Shown here in pieces: positions 1 through 19,947 of a stretch of DNA of 39,792 nt. The stretch covers positions 1-39,792 of the IMG/VR virus record IMGVR_UViG_3300032240_001492; one strand, written 5' to 3'. A program made the position numbers and the translations under genes. Each line of letters starts with the position of its first letter. Within the stretch, counting starts at the first letter, position 1. A model generated the notes under the pieces. It saw only the letters and a list, made by a program, of their open reading frames with translations. It was not told the origin of the DNA and ran no database searches. This DNA is from a virus.

Positions 1-161
1 CAACAATTGTCCATTCCAGATGGAGTACCATTGTACCCCATAGAAATGATATTGCCGTTTTTTACCAAGATAGATCCAACCTTTGCCCTTTCACAATAAG
101 ACAGCGCAGCTATTTCTTTTGCTATGTTTATAAAAGTTGTGTCTAACTTTTTTTGTTTCAC
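1..161 (-). CDS. dCMP deaminase, N-terminal part (runs off the window)
   Basis: Deoxycytidylate deaminases convert dCMP to dUMP, feeding dTMP synthesis. About 53 residues are visible. They include CERAKVGSILVKNG and GYNGTPSGMDNC, the N-terminal signature of the zinc-dependent phage/ComE-type enzymes; the zinc-binding HAE motif should lie beyond base 1. The likely start is GTG at 159-161, whose bases overlap the TGA stop of the MazG-like gene (GTGA, 4-base overlap), so translational coupling is likely. No in-frame ATG fits better. The family call is from visible motifs; the start is an inference. Confidence 0.82.
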   Translation of the reverse strand, partial: MKQKKLDTTFINIAKEIAALSYCERAKVGSILVKNGNIISMGYNGTPSGMDNC

Positions 162-463
162 AGAGATTCTTTTACAAATGTTCCACCGATCATTGTTCCT
201 TTACGTTTAGCTATTTGATTATAAGCTGAGTTGATACACTCTTCGATATTATAGCCTTTAAGTTTTGCTAGATTTGTAAGAACAACTACGCAATCTCCAA
301 TAGCATCAATAAACTCTTCTTCATCATTTTTTAGAATAGCTTTAGCTAATTCTCCAGCTTCTTCTTGCAATTTAATGTACTGAGTCTTCGCATCACCTTT
401 CTCATAAATTCCTCTTTGTTCTGCCCAGTCTCTAATAGACTGAAATTCATTTGTTAATGTCAT
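158..463 (-). CDS. MazG-like nucleotide pyrophosphohydrolase
   Basis: All-alpha NTP pyrophosphohydrolases hydrolyse (d)NTPs to monophosphates; phage versions are thought to adjust nucleotide pools or ppGpp signalling. The protein carries the metal-binding pattern KLQEEAGELAKAI followed by DEEEFIDAIGDCVVVL, which is the EExxE ... ExxD arrangement of the family, in about 101 residues (a single-domain length). I prefer the ATG at 461-463, which follows a long A-rich run and overlaps the upstream gene by 17 bases. An in-frame ATG at 493 would add 10 lysine-rich residues. It sits between the DUF6378-like gene and the dCMP deaminase, consistent with a nucleotide-metabolism operon. Confidence 0.8.
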   Translation of the reverse strand: MTLTNEFQSIRDWAEQRGIYEKGDAKTQYIKLQEEAGELAKAILKNDEEEFIDAIGDCVVVLTNLAKLKGYNIEECINSAYNQIAKRKGTMIGGTFVKESL

Positions 464-2730: not shown

Positions 2731-3411
2731 TTAATAAAATCTATCTTTGCAGTGATCAAAATGCCATCGCTGCATAGCATTGTATTGACCTATTTTTTTA
2801 CAATATGGACACTCCACTTTTTTCCTATCTTTAGCTGATTCTGACATTTTAATTTTAGCTTCTTCTGATTTAGGTTTGCGCATCTTACTTATAGTATTTT
2901 TAGAGTGTTTTTTACCAAATCTCCAGTTTTTTTCTCCTATTCTAGAATTTGATATATTCAATCTATGAGATTCAGAAAAAATCTTACCAGTATTAGGTCC
3001 TGGTTTGCCTATTTTAGCTTTTGACAGTTTCTTTTTATGATCTTCAGATAAAATTTTGCCTTTATGAGAGATAGATATTTTTAATTTAGTTTCATCACTT
3101 ACAACTTTTTCTCTCATTTTATTTTTACAATACTCATATACTCTAGAACTTGGTTTATATCTATTTCCTTTCTCTGTAGGTATTATAGACATCATAGAAA
3201 AAGCATAAAATAGACTAGGATTATCAGGATATATTTCATGTAGTAACCAATGACATAAAAAATGTTCTCTTGCAGTAAGCTCTACTATATTATCTTTATG
3301 ATTAGAACCTCCAATACATTTAGGTATTATATGATGCTTTTCTTTATATCCTTTTACAATTCTATTTTTAGCTCTGTATATAATTTGATCATATATTTTT
3401 TTATAATTCAT
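2731..3411 (-). CDS. HNH homing endonuclease with NUMOD3 repeats
   Basis: A 226-residue free-standing homing endonuclease. Residues about 23-62 hold the HNH core (EKHHIIPKCIGGSNHKDNIV ... LTAREHFLCHWLLHEIYP) with the double His and downstream His expected of the family. A lysine-rich middle section has several NUMOD3-like DNA-binding repeats (KGKILSEDHKKKLSKAKIGK; GKIFSESHRLNISNSRIG; GKKHSKNTISKM). The C-terminus has a CPYCKK ... HFDHC zinc-finger pattern. Such enzymes cut DNA at or near their insertion site and spread by recombination. It lies between complete genes and interrupts neither, so an intron is not indicated. Its 5' leader (3412-3522) is unusually structured. Confidence 0.92.
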   Translation of the reverse strand: MNYKKIYDQIIYRAKNRIVKGYKEKHHIIPKCIGGSNHKDNIVELTAREHFLCHWLLHEIYPDNPSLFYAFSMMSIIPTEKGNRYKPSSRVYEYCKNKMREKVVSDETKLKISISHKGKILSEDHKKKLSKAKIGKPGPNTGKIFSESHRLNISNSRIGEKNWRFGKKHSKNTISKMRKPKSEEAKIKMSESAKDRKKVECPYCKKIGQYNAMQRWHFDHCKDRFY

Positions 3412-4557: not shown

Positions 4558-6174
4558 TCACATCATACCCATCATAGGGTCCATAGACTTTTCGTCTTTG
4601 TCTTTCTTTTCAAACACAACCGATTCTGTGGTTAGAATTGTTCCGGCTACGGATGTTGCATTTTTAAGTGCTGTAATAACCACTTTTGCTGGATCGATGA
4701 TGCCTGATTCAAAGGCGTCTACGATTTTATGATTCTTTGCATCATAGACTTGATCATTTCCAGGGATACAATCAAACCAATTTTCAATACCTGCATTAGA
4801 TAGAATTTTCTTGAATGGAGCTTGTAGTGCATTTCGTACAATGTCTCTAGCAATAGCTACATTACTATTATATTCTGCTCTATGATTGAGTGCAACCCTA
4901 TAAAGAGTAGATCCACCACCTGCTACAATACCGTCTGCGAGTGCTGCTTTAGTTGCAAATAAGGCATCTTCAACTCTATCTTTCTTTTCTTTAATTTCAA
5001 TTTCACTATTTCCACCTACAGAAATGATAGCTACGCCTCCGATTAACTTACCAAGCCTTTCTTGTAGTTTTTCTTTCTCATAGAATGATGAAGCTTTTTC
5101 AATTTGCTTTTTAATTTCGTCTGCTCTTGATTCAATAGCTTGCTCGTCTCCTTTACCATCTACAATTGTAGTTTCATCTTTAGACACAGTAACAAGCCTT
5201 GTTGATCCAAGGAATTGTGAAATTTGACCTGCTTGCATTTTATCAAGCTTAAGACCTTTATCTTTTGAAATAACTTGGCCACCAGTCAAGATAGCAATAT
5301 CTTCCAAAATCAAAGTCTTTCTTTCACCAAAGTCTGGTGCTTTGACTGCACAAACTTGTACGATTCCTCTCATCTTATTTACAATCAATGTAGCCAGTGC
5401 TTCATCTCCAATATCTTCTGCAATAATCAAGATTGGCCTATTTTGTTGATGCGCCAAACCAAGTACTTGTACTAGTTCTTGAGCAGTAGAAATTCTACCA
5501 TCATAAAGTAGAATATAAGGATTGTCGAGCACTGCTTGCATTGTAGTGTTGTTAGTTACAAAATAAGGAGACTTGTAACCACGATCAAATTGCATACCTT
5601 CGACAACTTCAAGAGAAGTTTCACCAGTCTTAGATTCTTCAATTGTTACAACACCTTCACGACCCACTTTATCAAGTGCTTCTGAGATCAAGTTACCAAC
5701 TTCAGGATCATTGTTTCCAGAAATAGTAGCTACTTGTTTAATTTGATCTTCTGATGAAATGTCAATTGATAACTTTCTAATTTCGTCTACTACCTGTGAT
5801 ACAATTTTATCAATTTCATTTTTGATCTCTACAGCATTCACACCTTGGCGAATTTCTTTGATGCCTTGCTTAATCATTTCAGTAGCAAGAAGTGTAGACG
5901 TTGTTGTACCGTCACCTGCTTCATTTGCAGATTTAATACTTACTTGTTTAACAAGTTGCGCTCCAAGATCTTCAATATCATCTTCTAGTTTATGAAATGA
6001 CTTTGCGCATGTTACTCCGTCCTTAGTAACTTTAACTTCACCAGATTGTTCACGAATTAAAACTGTACGTCCACCAGGACCTAATGTAGAAGACACTACA
6101 TCATTTAATTTCGTAACTCCTGAAAGTAGCTTTTCTTTTAGCTCTTGTCCAATAACATGTTTTGTTGTACTCAT
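4558..6174 (-). CDS. groEL: GroEL-type chaperonin (Hsp60), full length
   Basis: A 538-residue group I chaperonin subunit that folds proteins in a double heptameric ring with GroES and ATP. It has the nucleotide-binding [11 protein letters not shown] motif (the counterpart of the Asp87 region in E. coli), the equatorial [16 protein letters not shown] segment with the Asp398 equivalent, the glycine-rich GIVAGGG motif and a short methionine-rich tail ending DPMMGMM. The length matches cellular GroEL (about 540), so it appears intact and probably active. The tail is shorter than the usual GGM repeats. It is 8 bases downstream of groES and ends in a strong terminator. A phage-encoded chaperonin may favour folding of capsid or other phage proteins. 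Confidence 0.97.
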
Positions 6175-6697: not shown

Positions 6698-7159
6698 TTA
6701 TTTAATTTTTATTTGTTTTACTGCTTTTCCTTCTGCAGTAGGGACATTCAAAATAAGTAGCCCCTTATCTAATGAAGCTTCAAGCTTATTTAGATCGAAT
6801 TTAGTGGAGATTTTCCAAGTTAAATTAAAAGAAGATCTCTTAATACCTCTGTATATTTGAGACTCTTCTGTTTTGTTTGGTTTTTCGTAAGTAATACGTA
6901 ATTGATCACCTTCGACAACGATACTAATATCTTCTTTGTCTAAACCTACTGCAGCTACTTCAAATCGAATACCTGCTTCTGTTTCAAAAATGTCTACTGG
7001 GTGAGAGATTTTCTGAGTAATATCAGAAAAATGTGATGTTGAGTTGAAAAGATCTTTCCATAAAAGATCGAACTGATCCAATTCAAATGGTCGAATGAAC
7101 GTCATAGTTTCATGTTTTGTGCTTCCTTTTTGGTAAGCGGTTAATAAATGTTTAGTCAT
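6698..7159 (-). CDS. Hsp20 / alpha-crystallin family small heat-shock protein
   Basis: A 153-residue holdase-type chaperone that binds unfolding proteins without ATP. The alpha-crystallin domain spans roughly residues 50-150. It begins HPVDIFETEAGIRFEVAAVGL, has the KEDISIVVEGDQLRITYE strand pair and ends KGLLILNVPTAEGKAVKQIKIK with the GLLxLNVP signature. The partner-binding I-x-I motif is present as IKIK. I chose the ATG at 7157-7159, preceded by AAAGTT as at several other starts. An in-frame GTG at 7177 lies inside the inverted repeat and would add six residues. It leads the chaperone operon. Confidence 0.93.
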   Translation of the reverse strand: MTKHLLTAYQKGSTKHETMTFIRPFELDQFDLLWKDLFNSTSHFSDITQKISHPVDIFETEAGIRFEVAAVGLDKEDISIVVEGDQLRITYEKPNKTEESQIYRGIKRSSFNLTWKISTKFDLNKLEASLDKGLLILNVPTAEGKAVKQIKIK

Positions 7160-7166
7160 AACTTTG

Positions 7167-7177
7167 GGCCTACTCAC
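7167..7177. repeat. Right arm of the 11-bp inverted repeat flanking hsp20
   Basis: GGCCTACTCAC on plus, matching 6682-6692 in inverse orientation. It lies in the hsp20 leader between the promoter-like octamer (7194-7201) and the ATG. Confidence 0.6.
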
Positions 7178-7235: not shown

Positions 7236-9539
7236 TTAGTGACCATCTCTAAGGTTGGGTGCCATTGCTGGCGGCGCTTTCAAAGCGATGCTTAATTTAG
7301 TTGTATTCTCCATCAAATCCTGGACAATTCTGGCCGCTTCTTCTGCCTTAGCATTGTCTACCTCAATTACTAATTGGTCATGGATCTGAGCACACACCCA
7401 GCCTCGTATATTTAGTTCTTGGAACTTTCTATTGATAGCTAATGCTGCACGGTTTACAATTGATGCAGCTAGACCTTGAATCTGAACGTTGCAAGAGTTA
7501 TTAAGACCGTTAATATAGTCTCTAGATAGATTTTTAATCTGATCTACTCCGTATTGTCTTTCCATTTCTTTTTTGATATTCCAATCAAGTAAGTCATCAC
7601 CTATTTTATCATAGATAGCTTTAACTTTAGGAAGGTGGCGAATACGTCCAACTTGAGTTTTAACGAAACCTTGTTCTTTAGCCTGCTTTTTAGATCTTTC
7701 CATCCATTGTTTAAGTTGAGGAAATCCATTCAAATAACCATCAACAAGCTTTTTAGCTTCTTTAGTAGGAATTCCAAGAGTCATACCAAGAGCATAAGCT
7801 CCCATACCGTAAGGAATACCTAATGAATATGCTTTTGCTTTATTCCTAAGTTTAGGATCCATTTTACGTAGGAAGTTAGGAGCTTTTTTATCAGGAGAAT
7901 ATTGATTAAGGCCTTCTGTTTTAATTGCAATAGTAGAATAGAAGTCCCAGTTATTTCTAAAGATGTCTTTTAGTCCTTCGTCTCCAGATACATGGGCAAA
8001 TGTATGTGGCTCCAAACTTTCATAATCGCAGTCAATAAAGATGTTCCCTTCATCATGAATAAAGAATGCCCGAATCAAGTTGTTGTATTCAATAACAATT
8101 GGTTCATCATCTCCTTCTTCTTTAGGACGAGGAAGTTGTTGGGCATCTGAACCATATCTTCCTGATACAGTTCCATGTTGTTTATAATAGAAGTAATACC
8201 TACCGTCTTCTTGAGCATCTAAGAAGCGATCCATGTAAGTACTCTTGATCTTGAGTAGACGATTATAGATACGTAAGTTTCTTGCCCATTCATACTTACC
8301 GGCAATTGATTGAACAGTGTCATCATCAAATTGAGGCTTACCTGTTTTTGTAGTTGATAAAGGTTTAATACCAAGAACTCCGAATGCAATTTCACCCATT
8401 TGATCTTTAGACTGGATATTGAAATAAGCTCCTTCATTATCTTCTTTCCATAGCCTCATACTAATCTTCATTGATACATCTTTATCAAGAACAGAAGGAT
8501 CTCCATGAAGTAGGTAGTGTTTAGCTGAACATTCTGGGAGCCTTATAAGTGATGATTTTGTTATAGTATATTTTCCTGTCTTTTCAGATTGATTTAAATC
8601 AAAATTAGATTCTTTGATCAACTCTTGAGCAAATGTGCCTTTATTATTAGGAGGATATGCATCTATAGCTTTTGTAACTATCCAAGCTCTTACATCAGGA
8701 TTTTTAAGAAGTTCTTTTGTAACTAGGTCTTCATACTCTTTAAGCTTTTCCCCGATAGACTCTCTAGATCTTTTAATCAAATCAAGATCAAGTTTAATAC
8801 CTACTTGTTCCATAGGAATTGTAACCTCTTTATAAAGTGGCATAACTTCATCTTTGAAAAAGAAGTCTTCTAGTCCTTCATCATATAGAGTCTTTATAAA
8901 GTGATTATATACTCTAAGAGTTAGATCTGTATCTGCTGATGCATATTCTGAAAGTAGTTCAAGGTCTGCTTTCCAGATTTCGTAGTTCTCTCTTGTTATT
9001 TGACCTCCATTATTTTTGATAGACTCTTTTAGTGCGATTTGCTCTTCATTTGCTGCCTTATCAATATCAAGCCCGATCTCTTTTTGAATCATTCTTGCAA
9101 TGTCTTTAAGACCGAATGCAGAACCTCCCATAAAACCTGCACCTTCTTCTTTTACTGTATGCACTAAAAGCATTGTATCTACATACAAACTAGAAAGAAG
9201 ATCTACATCATAGAAACACTTGACGAATTTAACGTCAAATGATGCGTTATGCATTATTATTCTTTTTCCAATAAGTAGTGAGATCGTTTTCTTTGCAAGA
9301 TCATGAGCTAATTTATCTTCAATATACGCATCTTGAAGTTCATTATCTTTAAAGATCATTGTAGGCATATAAAAACCTTTGCCTACTTCTCCTGATACTG
9401 AGAAGCCAATGATTTTACCTTTGCGAGGATTAAGACTATTTGTCTCTGTATCAAAGGCAATAACATCAGACAACTTTATATGTTCGATCAGGTCTTTTAA
9501 TTTACTAATCGAATCAACTGTAACATAACTTTTATTCAT
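7236..9539 (-). CDS. polA: DNA polymerase I (family A) with 3'-5' exonuclease
   Basis: A 767-residue replicative family A polymerase. The N-terminal proofreading exonuclease shows VIAFDTETNSL (Asp30, Glu32) and later HNASFDVKFVK and EYASADTDLTLRVY. The polymerase half has a TGRL-like SGRYGSDAQQLPRP. Motif A is DCDYESLEPH, motif B is RNKAKAYSLGIPYG, and motif C is QIHDQLVIEV (His720-Asp721-Gln722). The usual HDE of motif C is HDQ here. There is no 5'-nuclease domain; that activity is encoded separately at 14508-15518. The gene follows the small 9546-9740 gene by 6 bases. Confidence 0.97.
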   Translation of the reverse strand: MNKSYVTVDSISKLKDLIEHIKLSDVIAFDTETNSLNPRKGKIIGFSVSGEVGKGFYMPTMIFKDNELQDAYIEDKLAHDLAKKTISLLIGKRIIMHNASFDVKFVKCFYDVDLLSSLYVDTMLLVHTVKEEGAGFMGGSAFGLKDIARMIQKEIGLDIDKAANEEQIALKESIKNNGGQITRENYEIWKADLELLSEYASADTDLTLRVYNHFIKTLYDEGLEDFFFKDEVMPLYKEVTIPMEQVGIKLDLDLIKRSRESIGEKLKEYEDLVTKELLKNPDVRAWIVTKAIDAYPPNNKGTFAQELIKESNFDLNQSEKTGKYTITKSSLIRLPECSAKHYLLHGDPSVLDKDVSMKISMRLWKEDNEGAYFNIQSKDQMGEIAFGVLGIKPLSTTKTGKPQFDDDTVQSIAGKYEWARNLRIYNRLLKIKSTYMDRFLDAQEDGRYYFYYKQHGTVSGRYGSDAQQLPRPKEEGDDEPIVIEYNNLIRAFFIHDEGNIFIDCDYESLEPHTFAHVSGDEGLKDIFRNNWDFYSTIAIKTEGLNQYSPDKKAPNFLRKMDPKLRNKAKAYSLGIPYGMGAYALGMTLGIPTKEAKKLVDGYLNGFPQLKQWMERSKKQAKEQGFVKTQVGRIRHLPKVKAIYDKIGDDLLDWNIKKEMERQYGVDQIKNLSRDYINGLNNSCNVQIQGLAASIVNRAALAINRKFQELNIRGWVCAQIHDQLVIEVDNAKAEEAARIVQDLMENTTKLSIALKAPPAMAPNLRDGH

Positions 9540-13119: not shown

Positions 13120-14505
13120 TTATATTCCTAATTCAAAAAACTTATTAGCTAAATAAGCCTTCTCATCTTTGTCTAAACCAGAACTAAATGGTTTTGATGA
13201 TCCTGAAGCTGGCGATTGTGTATCGAATGTCAATTCGTCATCATCTAGACTATCTGGATTGATCTCAATATTACCATTATTAGTACTGATTTTAGCAGAA
13301 TATGTCATACCGTCCATACCGTAGCGGTTTTTCATGATATGAATACGTCCAGTTCCATTGATTTTATCTTGCCTTTTTCTAGATAAAGATAAAGCAAAGT
13401 CAGCAATCATCATCTTATTATATGAACCTGCTGCCTTATCTCCTTCAATTACATCATCTTTTGCGCCTGCTCTATTTACCTGTGATACTGTCCAGATAGG
13501 TATTTTAAGCTCCCTTGCCATACCTTTCGTTGCAGTATAAACATCATCAATTGCATCTTTAGGATCAATAGACTTTGTTTTGCTCTTTAATAGATCAACG
13601 TAGTCAATAATAACCAAGTCTGGAGGATATCCTAGATCACAGCACTTTTGAATGTGCGCTTCAATTGTATGAGTAGTAGCTTTTCCCATCGGGAACTCTT
13701 TGATAACCAACTTACCTTTCAATTTACTAACTGATTCCTCAATAGCCGCACGATGTTTGTGAACCTGTTGTACATCTATTCCTGTGAATAGAGAGTCATA
13801 ACGTTTGCCTACGTAGTACTCAGATAGTTCTAATGTATAATGACATACAGTATATCCTCTTTGTACCGCCATAGCTCCTAGATTAACTAGCATCCATGAC
13901 TTACCTCCACCAGGATTTCCGAATATAAGACCAAGATCACCTTTACCAAGACCTCCCATTAGAAGTTCATTGATGTGAGGCCATGATGTAGGAATAGCGG
14001 CTCTCTCTTCTTCACGATATCTGGTCTCAATATCTTTTTCATACTCATGACCGATAGACTTATCTTGACCTGCTTTCAATGCAGAGTCCATCATATACTT
14101 AATGTCATCGTATTGACCTTTTTCAAGAAGCGTTACTGAATTTAGGATAGCTTTTTTAATCTGTTGATTTTTACAAAAGCTACTAAACTCTTGCTCTACA
14201 TATTCACGATCTTCATTAGCAGATTTAAATGCTTCTTTTAACTGCTCTACTACACTAACTTTAAGAACTTCGTTCTCTATTTTTCTTACTTCTACTTGAA
14301 GAGAATCAAGTGACGGTGTAGTATGATACTTGTAATAGTATCTTAGAATTTCACCTACGATCCACTTATGTGCAGGATTGTCAAACATTTCAGTATCAAG
14401 AATGTCATTTATATTTTGAAGAAACTCTTTATGCTTCAACAAACTTGACATTACTTTGATTTGAAAACTGACACCGTACTGTTGTAACTGATTTAATGAC
14501 GCCAT
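13120..14505 (-). CDS. Replicative DNA helicase (DnaB / T4 gp41 type)
   Basis: A 461-residue hexameric helicase of the RecA-fold SF4 family that unwinds DNA ahead of the polymerase. Residues 1-150 are the helical N-terminal domain. The ATPase domain has Walker A FGNPGGGKSW (GNPGGGKS at 196-203), Walker B LVIIDYVDLLKS, a TVSQVNR motif and MIADFALSLSRKR followed by KNRYG near the arginine finger. The tail is acidic and serine-rich. No primase gene was seen in the window. It is 2 bases downstream of the exonuclease gene. Confidence 0.95.
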   Translation of the reverse strand: MASLNQLQQYGVSFQIKVMSSLLKHKEFLQNINDILDTEMFDNPAHKWIVGEILRYYYKYHTTPSLDSLQVEVRKIENEVLKVSVVEQLKEAFKSANEDREYVEQEFSSFCKNQQIKKAILNSVTLLEKGQYDDIKYMMDSALKAGQDKSIGHEYEKDIETRYREEERAAIPTSWPHINELLMGGLGKGDLGLIFGNPGGGKSWMLVNLGAMAVQRGYTVCHYTLELSEYYVGKRYDSLFTGIDVQQVHKHRAAIEESVSKLKGKLVIKEFPMGKATTHTIEAHIQKCCDLGYPPDLVIIDYVDLLKSKTKSIDPKDAIDDVYTATKGMARELKIPIWTVSQVNRAGAKDDVIEGDKAAGSYNKMMIADFALSLSRKRQDKINGTGRIHIMKNRYGMDGMTYSAKISTNNGNIEINPDSLDDDELTFDTQSPASGSSKPFSSGLDKDEKAYLANKFFELGI

Positions 14506-14507
14506 AA

Positions 14508-15518
14508 CTATTTATATTTTGATAATTCATTAAAGTGATTAAACAACCACATATACACATTTGGTATAGAATTGCCTAATTCATCTTCATGATACAAATT
14601 AAGAAATTCTTGTGAATTAAACTCTTTCGATGGGCTTAGTAACATACTATTTATTTCTTCTAGTGCATCTTCAGGTATATTAGGATCTTTTAAGTCCATT
14701 AACTTTTTATTGATCCTTAATTGATACTCGTAATTTTTAATATTCTCTAGTATCTTAGCTCTACCTTCACAATTTGCCAATATATCGTCTAATGATATTT
14801 CTGTTTCAGAACCCAATTCAGGAAACATTTTTAGCATGGTCTTACTTCCTAGACCTTTTACTCCAGGTACATTATCTCCAGAATCTCCAAGAAGTATCTT
14901 TTGAGTCAAAAAGTTTTTTGGAGTTACTCCATACTCTTTTAGTACTAATTCTCTATCATAGAACTTTTTCTTAGTAGGAGAATATATTGTAACTCTGTCT
15001 GAAACTAATTGTAAGTAATCTCTATCTGATGAAAGGATGGTAACCTCTCCATCTATTTTTCCTGTAATATAACCAATAACATCATCTGCTTCAATTTTGT
15101 CAATTGATAGTAGATCTACAGGAAGTTGTTTTAGATAATAGATTAGTCTGATTATCTGATTTGTAATTGCTTCAGACTCATCTTGCTGAGATTCAAATGA
15201 ATCCCAATTAGTAACTCTTTTGATACCTCTGTTTCCTTTATAATCTGGATAGATATATCTTTTGTTAGTCGATGCACCTTGACCATCAAATACTAATATC
15301 ACTCTAGTCGGCCTAACTAATTTAATTGCGTAGCCTAAGGAACGTAAAAATCCTGTTAGGCCTCCGATATGTGACAGTTCTTTATTTACCCAGCCAATAG
15401 CAGTGAATGCTCTTAAGAAGGTGTTTAGTCCATCAATAAGTAACACTCTGCTATTAACATGGTCTTCGATCTTTTCTTGTTTTAAAGAATCGAATATTTT
15501 TCTTTGTTCTTCGTTCAT
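14508..15518 (-). CDS. 5'-3' exonuclease / flap endonuclease (T4 RNase H-like)
   Basis: A 336-residue FEN/PIN-domain nuclease that removes RNA primers and 5' flaps on the lagging strand. Acidic metal-binding positions are visible in VLLIDGLNTF, RVILVFDGQGA, DKIEADDVIGYI and VTILSSDRDYLQL. They are followed by the helix-hairpin-helix LGDSGDNVPGVKGLGSKTML. This supplies the 5'-nuclease that the phage DNA polymerase lacks. Its ATG overlaps the stop of the recombinase gene by one base (TAATG), so they are translationally coupled. Confidence 0.95.
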   Translation of the reverse strand: MNEEQRKIFDSLKQEKIEDHVNSRVLLIDGLNTFLRAFTAIGWVNKELSHIGGLTGFLRSLGYAIKLVRPTRVILVFDGQGASTNKRYIYPDYKGNRGIKRVTNWDSFESQQDESEAITNQIIRLIYYLKQLPVDLLSIDKIEADDVIGYITGKIDGEVTILSSDRDYLQLVSDRVTIYSPTKKKFYDRELVLKEYGVTPKNFLTQKILLGDSGDNVPGVKGLGSKTMLKMFPELGSETEISLDDILANCEGRAKILENIKNYEYQLRINKKLMDLKDPNIPEDALEEINSMLLSPSKEFNSQEFLNLYHEDELGNSIPNVYMWLFNHFNELSKYK

Positions 15519-16576
15519 TAATCTTCTACATCAAAAATGTCTGGAGATAGCACTGTTTCTTCTTCTACTACATCGAAAGATGTTGATCCTAAGACTTTCA
15601 TCCACTGATCAGAATATTTCTTTTTGTAGTCATCGAGATCCTTCTTATCATCTTTGATAAAGCCATGAACTGTCATAATAACTTTATTAACGGCTGTAAC
15701 ACCTGTTACGTGATTTTTATCACAGCTAATTCTAGTTCTCTTTGCAAACTCAACTTCTTTACCATTTTTAGTGGCTTTGATTTTATTTGTACCGGCTCTA
15801 GCGATGTTACCAAATGTAAGAATCAATGATGCATCAAAGTACATTGTATTTCCGCCTTTATTATTTAGTGTAGGTTGACCCATTGGTGAATCAGGTTTAG
15901 CTACCCAAACTTTATTTACTGCTACAAGAGTATTAGTATAAGGTTGAGATGCTTTACGAGATAGTACAATTCTTTGATTAATGAAGTTACCGAACTGCTG
16001 AGACATTGCTCCTGCATTCCACTCATTGTTATTAGTAGATTTTTCGATACTCATCTTACAAGGAATAGATCCTACTGAATCCCAGAAGAAACAAATGTCA
16101 TAAGGAAGATTTCCTCTCTTTTGCTCATCTAAAATGTCAGCAATAAAACCTGCTACATCTTCAATACAATCAAGCTTTTCACGATCAATGTACAAAAAGA
16201 ATCCTTTATAGTCTACGATCTCACCATTCTCATCTGCTACTTCATCAAATTGAAAACCCATTTCACGTGCATGTGACCAATCCCATTTCATCTCTGTAAT
16301 AATAAAAACAGGAAGAATTCCCATCTTTTGCGCGTTTACTGCTGCTTCAAGAAGTGCAGTAGTTTTTCCTGTATCTGAATGTCCTCTAAGAAGTGAAATA
16401 TGACCAATTGGAATTCCAGGTATCTGAAGTGTATCTTGAACTGCATTAGAAAGTGGGATCCATTTTTGTTCCTTAAAAACAACCGCAGTAGAAAGATTCT
16501 TACCTTTCTTAAATTTCTCTAGATCGATTGTGCCTTTGATTGCGCTAGACACAGCGCTATTTAGTGATTTTGCCAT
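15518..16576 (-). CDS. uvsX: RecA/UvsX-type recombinase
   Basis: A 352-residue ATP-dependent strand-exchange protein. Walker A is LLRGHSDTGKTTALLEAA (GHSDTGKT at 65-72), Walker B is DICFFWDSVGSIP, and there is an NQRIVLSRKASQPYTNTLVAVNKV segment like UvsX/RecA motif 3. The acidic tail ends SPDIFDVED. In T4 the homologue drives recombination-dependent replication and repair with gp32. It sits between the ssDNA-binding protein gene and the exonuclease gene. The intrinsic terminator after the ssb-like gene lies in its leader, so read-through or a separate promoter must supply its mRNA. Confidence 0.94.
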   Translation of the reverse strand: MAKSLNSAVSSAIKGTIDLEKFKKGKNLSTAVVFKEQKWIPLSNAVQDTLQIPGIPIGHISLLRGHSDTGKTTALLEAAVNAQKMGILPVFIITEMKWDWSHAREMGFQFDEVADENGEIVDYKGFFLYIDREKLDCIEDVAGFIADILDEQKRGNLPYDICFFWDSVGSIPCKMSIEKSTNNNEWNAGAMSQQFGNFINQRIVLSRKASQPYTNTLVAVNKVWVAKPDSPMGQPTLNNKGGNTMYFDASLILTFGNIARAGTNKIKATKNGKEVEFAKRTRISCDKNHVTGVTAVNKVIMTVHGFIKDDKKDLDDYKKKYSDQWMKVLGSTSFDVVEEETVLSPDIFDVED

Positions 16577-16628: not shown

Positions 16629-17432
16629 TTAGATGTCGAACAACTTGTCAATCTCTGAATCAACACTAGCTTTTGCAGTATTGAGAGTGTATTGAGCTGC
16701 TGGTTTTTCCCAAGGAAGATCTGACTCTGCCTTTGGTTGTACTTGATCAACTTCTTCTTTCAACTCTTCTTCAGGATTCAAATGTTTTAATAGAGCTTCT
16801 TTCATCTCATCATAAGAATACCTTTTGAATTGTGTCAAAGGATCTGGTTGTGTTTCAAGCCACAATTTAACTTTTACTCCATCATCTGAAAGTGGAGTTG
16901 ATTTAGTCCTTACCCTAACTGTTGACGTATTGTACATCAAACCTGTTGTCTCTTTTCCAGAGGTTTCAACAGTAATGTCACGTCCAGTTACAGGATCAGA
17001 ATAATCTCCTACATCTTCATCTTCAGCAATTGACAAAAGATCCATATAAACCTGCTTACCAAATTCCCAAAGACGAACGCCTTTGTCTTCTTCACCTCTG
17101 ACAATAACAGGGGCAAAGACACGCATTTTTGGTTCAAGTTTCTTTGCAAGAGACCAGTTTTCTTTTTCTGATGACTTACGAAGTCCTTGTGCAAATTCAA
17201 CAATAGGATCTTTTTCATTAAAGTTAGTGAGTGAAATCATGGATCTGTTGTTGATTCCATAATGCATGTACACTTCCTTGAATGGGTTTTGCTTGTTAAA
17301 CACTGATGGTACGATACGTACTGAATGCTTACCCACGCCTGGTCTCCAGATAGTCTGGGATAGGTCTTTTTTTTGTCCTCCACGTGGATTTTGTAGAGCC
17401 GACAGTCTTGACTTAATAACTGATATATCCAT
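16629..17432 (-). CDS. Single-stranded DNA-binding protein (T4 gp32-like)
   Basis: A 267-residue protein placed and shaped like T4 gp32. It has a basic N-terminus (SRLSALQNPRGGQKKDLSQTIW), an OB-like core with KHSVRIVPS and FKEVYMHYGI, and a strongly acidic C-terminal region ending DSEIDKLFDI, similar to the gp32 protein-interaction tail. It contains no cysteine, so the zinc-binding site of T4 gp32 is absent. It coats ssDNA and recruits helicase, polymerase and UvsX. It has a strong terminator and a host-like -7 box upstream, consistent with high independent expression. Confidence 0.88.
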   Translation of the reverse strand: MDISVIKSRLSALQNPRGGQKKDLSQTIWRPGVGKHSVRIVPSVFNKQNPFKEVYMHYGINNRSMISLTNFNEKDPIVEFAQGLRKSSEKENWSLAKKLEPKMRVFAPVIVRGEEDKGVRLWEFGKQVYMDLLSIAEDEDVGDYSDPVTGRDITVETSGKETTGLMYNTSTVRVRTKSTPLSDDGVKVKLWLETQPDPLTQFKRYSYDEMKEALLKHLNPEEELKEEVDQVQPKAESDLPWEKPAAQYTLNTAKASVDSEIDKLFDI

Positions 17433-17968: not shown

Positions 17969-19264
17969 TTAGAATGCGTAATTGGTTCCGTATTTGTGTT
18001 TTACAATCATATCTGATCCTTGGAGGATATTTTTGATCTCTTTTAACAAATCTTTTCCATCTTCTTGAGAAAAATCAAACAAGAATGAATCATAAGTTAT
18101 TAATATAAGCTTTGTCTTAGTATTTTCCAAAAGCTTGTTTATGTCTAGTATTTTATATATGTTTTCTTTTGTTTCTAAATTCTGAACAATATAGTTGAAC
18201 AACTTCAATTTATTCATTCCAGGAAGCTTTTTTAATATCCTTCCTGTTGGTAGGATTAGGGCTTTATGAGCAACATATTTTTTCCATTCCTGATCTATGA
18301 ATTCATTCAAAGACTTAAAGAAGTCTATATGTTTGTATTGGGCTTCAATACCTCCATACAGTTGTTTAAACGTGATAGCCTTTGATTCTTTATATTGTTC
18401 ATCAGATAGCTCATCTACGTGGAAATATGCGCGTCCCAGGTATGTGTGCATTGATTCTTTAGGAGGTTCAAAGCCTATAAGTCTTGAGATCAATCTTAGA
18501 TGGTAGGCGTCAAAGTCAAATTCTACCAAGAAGTCATTATTAGGCAAAAAACACTCTCTAAAGTCTTTATCTTTAGGAATTGCTAAAAAGTTAATACCAT
18601 TAAAAGAATTAGTAGGCCTAGCCGTTAAATTATAAAGATTGTAGTAAGAATATATAGTATCTCCTAACAAAGAATGTTCTTTATTCTGGAATTGGAATTT
18701 GGTATCAAAGCATCTTAGATCAACTTTTATTCCTGCCTCTTCTACTTTTTTATAAGCTTCTACTAACTTGTCTTGGAGTTCGATGTCCATCTCAAGTTCA
18801 AAATAATCTTTTATCATGTCATAAAGACATTGACACTTTTGATAATGTTTAGATATAGGAATTATTTCATTTAGAGTAGGAAGTATAGGATGTTTGATAT
18901 AAAAATCCCTGTGGACAGGAGTATTGCAATCAAATGAAGTGTACTCATTATTTTTATCTAGGCAAATAAATTGTACATCAATTGAGTTTTGCAGATTTAT
19001 AAAATAAGAATGAAACTTTTTATCAAGTAGATAAATTTTGTTATGCTTATTTAAAAAAGACTCTACTAACTTTAGATCAAGAGAAAATCCTTCAGAGTGA
19101 TTAATAACAAATATATATCCCTTCTTAGAATTATTATAATAGATAAGACTTACTCTAGCTAACTTTGGATGATAATAGTCATTAGATGAAATGACTTGGA
19201 TAAATGCCTGGTCAGACATTTCTAATTTTAAAAACTGTTCTTTTTCTTCAATGATGAAATACAT
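17969..19264 (-). CDS. Second, divergent family A DNA polymerase-like protein
   Basis: A 431-residue protein whose C-terminal half aligns by eye with the palm and fingers of DNA polymerase I. LTARPTNSFNGINFLAIP (213-230) corresponds to the TGRLSS...NLQNIP block (Arg216). Motif A is EFDFDAYHLRLIS (Asp250; the usual Glu is His255). Motif B is KESKAITFKQLYGG (Lys295, Phe299, Tyr303). NYIVQN (357-362) matches the QGTAAD-region helix, and motif C is TYDSFLF (Tyr391-Asp392-Ser393 instead of His-Asp-Glu). Both catalytic aspartates remain. The N-terminal 200 residues are unrecognised and lack clear exonuclease motifs. A full DNA polymerase exists at 7236-9539, so this is a specialised or accessory polymerase, or a non-catalytic paralogue. 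Confidence 0.8.
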   Translation of the reverse strand: MYFIIEEKEQFLKLEMSDQAFIQVISSNDYYHPKLARVSLIYYNNSKKGYIFVINHSEGFSLDLKLVESFLNKHNKIYLLDKKFHSYFINLQNSIDVQFICLDKNNEYTSFDCNTPVHRDFYIKHPILPTLNEIIPISKHYQKCQCLYDMIKDYFELEMDIELQDKLVEAYKKVEEAGIKVDLRCFDTKFQFQNKEHSLLGDTIYSYYNLYNLTARPTNSFNGINFLAIPKDKDFRECFLPNNDFLVEFDFDAYHLRLISRLIGFEPPKESMHTYLGRAYFHVDELSDEQYKESKAITFKQLYGGIEAQYKHIDFFKSLNEFIDQEWKKYVAHKALILPTGRILKKLPGMNKLKLFNYIVQNLETKENIYKILDINKLLENTKTKLILITYDSFLFDFSQEDGKDLLKEIKNILQGSDMIVKHKYGTNYAF

Positions 19265-19317: not shown

Positions 19318-19947
19318 TTACATAGTAGGTCTTGCAAATTTTGTGTAGTCGCCTCCAATAAAATCTACCATTCCGATAAAAGTTTTATTTGATTGTTCTG
19401 TAAGCCTTTGGTTTGTTTCAATGATGCCTGGGATTACGTTATATTGCGACTTTCTAGTATTATTTAATGGTCCTGTTAATTTCCACAGTATTTGAGTAGT
19501 CTGATATATTGATATATCATAATCTGCAGTTCCATTCACTATAGAATTATATTCATCTTGAGATATCTCTATGATGTAACCGTTCTCATTTTCTTTTTTA
19601 GTAAAATATCTAATAACATATCCTCTAGTATAATCTTGCTCTGTAGGTTTTGGATAATAGCTATTAGGTTTTCCTGGGATTCTGGTTATATTTGCTTCTG
19701 ATTTTCTTGCGATATCTTTTTTCTGTTGATCAGAAATATTCATATTATTTAATCCAGGAGCCGAATTATAATTAGGTCTTTTTGTTAAAGGTTCACTAGG
19801 TCCTATTTCTGGACTAGGTCCTGAAAAAGGTTTACCTGAATAATCTAGATAGTACTTTCCTTTATATTGAACTCCATTTAAAAGAAACTCTCCTCCATTA
19901 GTGGCCAGATTTTTTATAACTCTAAATGATGGATAATATCTAAGCAT
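19318..19947 (-). CDS. Probable baseplate or tail structural protein, unknown
   Basis: A 209-residue protein with an N-terminal NGGEFLLNGVQYKGKYYLDYSGKPFSG pattern (beta-rich, glycine/tyrosine-rich). It is followed by a flexible Pro/Asn-rich linker and a C-terminal YTRGYVIRYFTKKENENGYIIEI ... QTTQILWKLTGPL region. Similar GGEF...YKG.Y proteins occur next to baseplate genes in related phages, from memory. It lies 2 bases after the hub gene stop and has an ATATTTAT octamer 23 bases before its ATG (inside the hub gene's end). Confidence 0.6.
   Translation of the reverse strand: MLRYYPSFRVIKNLATNGGEFLLNGVQYKGKYYLDYSGKPFSGPSPEIGPSEPLTKRPNYNSAPGLNNMNISDQQKKDIARKSEANITRIPGKPNSYYPKPTEQDYTRGYVIRYFTKKENENGYIIEISQDEYNSIVNGTADYDISIYQTTQILWKLTGPLNNTRKSQYNVIPGIIETNQRLTEQSNKTFIGMVDFIGGDYTKFARPTM

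Follow-up and report, generated by a model that had tools for sequence, protein, structure and literature searches.

A divPolA1 polymerase with an altered family A active site beside the proofreading replicase of a phage

Eukaryotes are the textbook case of DNA synthesis shared between a proofreading replicase and an exonuclease-dead partner, but phages are usually said to have a single DNA polymerase. A compact family A enzyme, divPolA1, is known from 14 phages, including Flavobacterium phage immuto, and accompanies a regular polymerase that belongs to family A, B or C (Yutin et al. 2024, Virol J 21:200, PMC11348598). As published, divPolA1 keeps the catalytic residues of the palm, has a truncated thumb and a dead exonuclease domain, and is followed downstream by replication genes; the same authors infer that polymerase activity was retained, that the exonuclease was lost and that the protein acts in replication (PMC11348598). 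They name records LR796625 and MK892584 as divPolA1 and report chaperonins in all such regular-polymerase neighbourhoods. The divPolA2 of barbaviruses is likewise an extra divergent PolA beside a regular polymerase, but it has an N-terminal globular domain unrelated to PolA, a variable neighbourhood and sometimes several copies per genome (PMC11348598).

CcPol-MP and the PolA-SSB primase pairs, which belong to mobile elements, provide a further comparison. The last thumb helix is shortened in CcPol, in other PolA-SSB primases and in T7 RNA polymerase, and the shorter helix is thought to make space for the triphosphate of the first nucleotide (PMC7581432, PMC10061031). Here we analyse the window, a viral DNA stretch of 39,792 nucleotides, which encodes a compact polymerase of the divPolA1 kind (Table 1).

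Identity and fold of the compact polymerase

The 431-residue protein of the window is a member of the published divPolA1 family and thus not unprecedented. It is homologous to the immuto protein (34.9% identity over 99% of the query, E 4e-74), is the second polymerase of its genome, keeps the palm aspartates, has a dead exonuclease and is followed by replication genes. Length and the P230-R236 spacing suggest that its thumb may be truncated as well. What is new beyond the text of Yutin et al. is the fixation of four replacements (E710 to His, R754 to Tyr, H881 to Tyr and A852 to Glu, in E. coli Pol I numbering), the short thumb helix and a co-occurring partner gene; a search of that text (PMC11348598) for the steric gate, ribonucleotides, Okazaki fragments or an altered Glu found none of them.

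Table 1. Features of the window bearing on the compact polymerase and its neighbours
Feature	Position	Strand	Basis	Remark
Full-length DNA polymerase I	7236..9539	minus		intact 3'-5' exonuclease; probable replicase
DnaB-like replicative helicase	13120..14505	minus		
5'-3' exonuclease (flap nuclease)	14508..15518	minus		5' nuclease of Pol I as its own gene
UvsX/RecA-like recombinase	15518..16576	minus		
gp32-like single-stranded DNA binding protein	16629..17432	minus		
Partner ORF, 146 aa	17491..17931	minus	conservation, model	~140 aa generally; no known family
divPolA1, compact family A DNA polymerase, 431 aa	17969..19264	minus	HMM, structure model, immuto homology	
divPolA1, degenerate exonuclease-like domain	residues ~1-125			
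divPolA1, short thumb	residues ~125-236			
divPolA1, palm and fingers	residues ~200-431			
209-aa protein	19318..19947	minus		function not assigned; between tail genes and divPolA1

Taken alone, the window protein matched the Pfam model DNA_pol_A weakly (E=5e-4) and below the gathering cut-off (19.6 bits, cut-off 34.3), and PHROGs gave no polymerase match for it. The same Pfam model was found in 41 of 95 relatives at E up to 0.01, a profile built from relatives reached E. coli Klenow in the PDB (E=2e-4), and hhalign against E. coli Pol I (E=2e-6, 205 columns) lined up motifs A, B, 6 and C. An AlphaFold2 model computed from a 95-sequence alignment reached a mean pLDDT of 94.5 and a pTM of 0.90. 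Its best PDB matches were all Pol I large fragments (Foldseek E about 1e-17 to 1e-19), and VIA aligned it with them end to end (1-431, 401 residues aligned, Z up to 27.5). These comparisons confirm the second family A polymerase proposed in an earlier sequence-only reading, whose suggested structural check returned a palm and fingers aligned with Pol I large fragments, and whose motif positions were correct (D250, K295, F299, Y303 and D392).

In IMG/VR, we found 414 candidate stretches encoding a relative. Full-length or near full-length homologues occur in immuto, in Microcystis phage Mel-JY01 and in the 484-kb uncultured phage LR756508; a scan of the viral_contigs collection found no relatives of the LR756508 protein.

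Thumb, active site and inactivated exonuclease domain

Compared with E. coli Klenow, divPolA1 shares the fold, the motif order, both catalytic Asp and the counterparts of K758, F762, Y766, R668 and Q849, whereas it is shorter (431 against 605 residues), has lost the exonuclease motifs and is changed at E710, R754, H881, E883 and A852. The N-terminal part had been read as not recognisable as an exonuclease. Structurally it is recognisable: starting at residue 1, the model can be aligned with Pol I fragments across their exonuclease-like domain. No DxE exonuclease motif is conserved there, and the only conserved acids within residues 1-130 are at 58 and 96. The 3'-5' exonuclease-like domain is thus present but inactivated, which would leave the enzyme without proofreading.

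Relative to E. coli Pol I, the last thumb helix, just before motif A, lacks 4 residues, and the hhalign gap falls exactly there. The P230-R236 spacing is 6 in 111 of 112 sequences, whereas it is 10 for the E. coli enzyme and 20 for the regular PolA of the window, and DSSP assigns a helix to residues 233-236 of the model.

A profile comparison of divPolA1 with the large PolA of the window was uninformative (E 0.27), and E. coli Pol I was therefore chosen for residue mapping. In the hhalign map, D250 corresponds to D705, H255 to E710, Y291 to R754, K295 to K758, F299 to F762, Y303 to Y766, Q361 to Q849, E364 to A852, Y391 to H881, D392 to D882 and S393 to E883. All of these except S393 are invariant among 112 sequences under 90% identity. 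Across the total of 297 aligned sequences, D250, R216, K295, F299 and Y303 are each found in 297, and D392 in 295, the other two having a gap; the four residues whose conservation had been put forward as a check (Asp250, Asp392, Lys295 and Tyr303) are therefore kept, gaps aside. The E710 equivalent is His in 297/297, so the steric-gate Glu is lost from divPolA1. The changes R754 to Tyr, H881 to Tyr and A852 to Glu are likewise fixed, gaps aside, and the position of E883 carries Ala (170) or Ser (125).

One paper describes E710 as present in every family A polymerase and its replacement as a mutator change in Klenow (PMC4882331). The replacement of residues described as universal in family A (E710, and R754 in the dNTP site) could make catalysis weak or alter the substrate. 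Within the window clade, dN/dS is about 0.04, and 0.033 for the palm taken alone, with synonymous sites near saturation. Together with the invariant residues, this low ratio indicates that the active-site changes are a fixed redesign and not decay. Judging from the sequences, divPolA1 is very probably still catalytically active, and the loss of the E710 equivalent leads us to predict low fidelity and a relaxed choice of sugar. The invariant E364 might be considered a candidate substitute for a lost carboxylate.

Regular polymerase, replication cassette and partner gene

The complete DNA polymerase I that the sequence-only reading had noticed elsewhere in the window is real, and its exonuclease is intact. 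In the regular PolA of the window and of five related genomes, E710, R754, H881, D882 and the four exonuclease acids are all kept. These regular enzymes, which served as a control, deviate in two places: position 762 is Leu, and motif C reads HDQ where HDE is canonical. In the window, GroEL and Hsp20 (4558-6174 and 6698-7177, minus strand) adjoin the regular PolA; GroEL near the regular polymerase is a trait common to the window and the divPolA1 phages of Yutin et al.

The regular polymerase differs by clade, being of family A in the clades of the window and of immuto and of family B in LR756508 and the clade of Mel-JY01; divPolA1 is therefore the constant part. Family B matches extend over two ORFs in LR756508 (260623-262308 and 266583-266900) and in genome G012 (53555-55532), which suggests split genes. 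In the divPolA1 tree, PolA-type and PolB-type phages are split by one change, with long branches meeting at LR756508, and the window clade lies on a branch separate from immuto. Furthermore, a DnaG-type primase, a relative of that of immuto, was found in 10/10 genomes of at least 150 kb. Since both a replicase and this primase coexist with divPolA1, the compact enzyme is an addition to both, whichever replicase family is used. In ten genomes, neither an NAD-dependent ligase nor a T4-type clamp scored over the Pfam cut-off, so a full set for Okazaki maturation was not seen; the clamp model was silent in every control too, and its absence therefore says little.

Downstream of divPolA1, on the same strand and tightly packed, follow the partner ORF, gp32, UvsX, the 5' nuclease and DnaB. 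In all 82 loci with at least 9 kb of flank, gp32, UvsX and DnaB follow divPolA1 on its strand, and in 81 of them the 5' nuclease does so too. Upstream, the 209-aa protein is a conserved neighbour in the window and Mel-JY01 clades, and beyond it lies a 1497-aa protein with matches to tape-measure families at its C-terminal end. The gene had been placed beside the tail genes: it does border them, but it heads a replication cassette.

Conservation of the partner ORF extends across clades, and within the phage collection the records that have it are exactly the six with divPolA1. It matched no known family. The protein is strongly conserved and has the motif HRKKxxNTLYTINALN. Its model (pLDDT 87) is mixed alpha/beta, with no significant PDB match and no OB-fold match; the best hit, at Z 5.6, was the T-antigen origin-binding domain. 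The model weakly resembles RRM-like and T-antigen origin-binding domains, below significance.

Possible functions of divPolA1

With moderate confidence, we propose that divPolA1 is an active, template-dependent accessory polymerase that has lost proofreading and serves lagging-strand synthesis or synthesis linked to recombination. The intact metal ligands, the loss of proofreading, the altered nucleotide site and the fixed linkage to genes for a single-stranded DNA binding protein, recombinase, flap nuclease and helicase fit such an accessory fork enzyme. It would act alongside, and not in place of, the proofreading replicase, which is of family A here and of family B in related phages. Its probable products are short stretches of DNA on fork single strands covered by gp32, made by primer extension, by gap filling after the neighbouring flap nuclease, or by extension of strand-invasion intermediates made by UvsX. 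We infer the lagging-strand or recombination task from the above, and the tract itself might begin after an RNA primer, in a gap, at a D-loop or from nothing. The gene linkage fits gap filling, primer extension, D-loop extension and translesion synthesis alike and cannot separate them. The separate task that the sequence-only reading had proposed for a second family A polymerase with altered catalytic residues is supported.

The short thumb helix and the partner favour a role at the start of strands. We tentatively suggest that divPolA1 and its partner might together constitute a family A primase-polymerase or a Pol alpha-like primer extender whose nucleotide site has been remodelled (E710 to His, R754 to Tyr, H881 to Tyr, and an additional invariant Glu on helix Q), kept unchanged during the exchange of family A and B replicases. 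If true, phages would have two polymerases at the fork that divide the work. That divPolA1 initiates strands de novo, perhaps with the partner or gp32, seems doubtful, although it resembles the CcPol-MP and PolA-SSB pairs in being a compact PolA without proofreading, with a last thumb helix shortened as in those primases and T7 RNA polymerase, a small conserved partner adjacent and a helicase in the operon, besides a single-stranded DNA binding protein in the cassette. The partners in those pairs are OB folds, whereas that of divPolA1 is mixed alpha/beta and not recognisably OB; CcPol retains the E710 equivalent (PMC7581432, PMC10061031), which is His in divPolA1; and the helicases are D5-type or Cch2 in PolA-SSB elements, in contrast to DnaB here. 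Unlike those elements, divPolA1 phages additionally encode the DnaG-type primase. Priming, which had been listed among the possible tasks, is conceivable, and we reject divPolA1 as the sole primase, given that the DnaG-type primase is present in all ten genomes of at least 150 kb.

A translesion polymerase, or one tolerant of modified bases, that takes over from a stalled proofreading replicase would agree with the absent proofreading, the invariant His at a position whose loss makes Klenow a mutator, and the linkage to recombination genes; immuto, moreover, has genes for 7-deazaguanine DNA modification. We regard this as unlikely, as divPolA1 is tightly linked to core fork genes and not to repair genes, and the modification genes were an incidental find in immuto alone. 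The replacement of E710, R754, H881 and E883 might also suggest a non-catalytic, structural or clamp-like palm, a role raised by the sequence-only reading. Both metal ligands, K295, F299, Y303 and R216 are invariant and purifying selection is strong, strongest in the palm, which makes such a role very improbable. A single-subunit RNA polymerase derived from PolA is, we consider, highly unlikely as well. T7-type RNA polymerases have Ser or Ala following the motif C Asp, as does divPolA1, and the lost steric-gate Glu and short thumb helix would fit as well. However, no RNA polymerase is found among the 50 best structural matches (one lower down is possible), F299 corresponds to Phe762 of DNA polymerases, and the Arg that is kept in both Pol I and T7 RNA polymerase is Tyr in divPolA1.

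Altogether, hundreds of aquatic phage contigs retain a second polymerase irrespective of their replicase family, and its active site lacks residues described as universal in family A. The fixed changes may mean that divPolA1 starts or finishes strands and does not copy whole genomes. This raises the question of which chemistry a His-for-Glu nucleotide site allows, and whether strands are started, extended or repaired with it.

Three observations concern other genes of these phages. Between the partner ORF and gp32, Mel-JY01 encodes a protein that contains an S-adenosylmethionine lyase domain and is possibly an anti-restriction factor (L083:21649-22935). The immuto genome carries QueC, QueD, QueE, FolE, a QueF-like protein and DpdA (NC_055915.1, 18607-37015), which are genes for 7-deazaguanine in DNA. 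Finally, an HNH/NUMOD3 homing endonuclease is encoded in the window at 2731-3411 on the minus strand.
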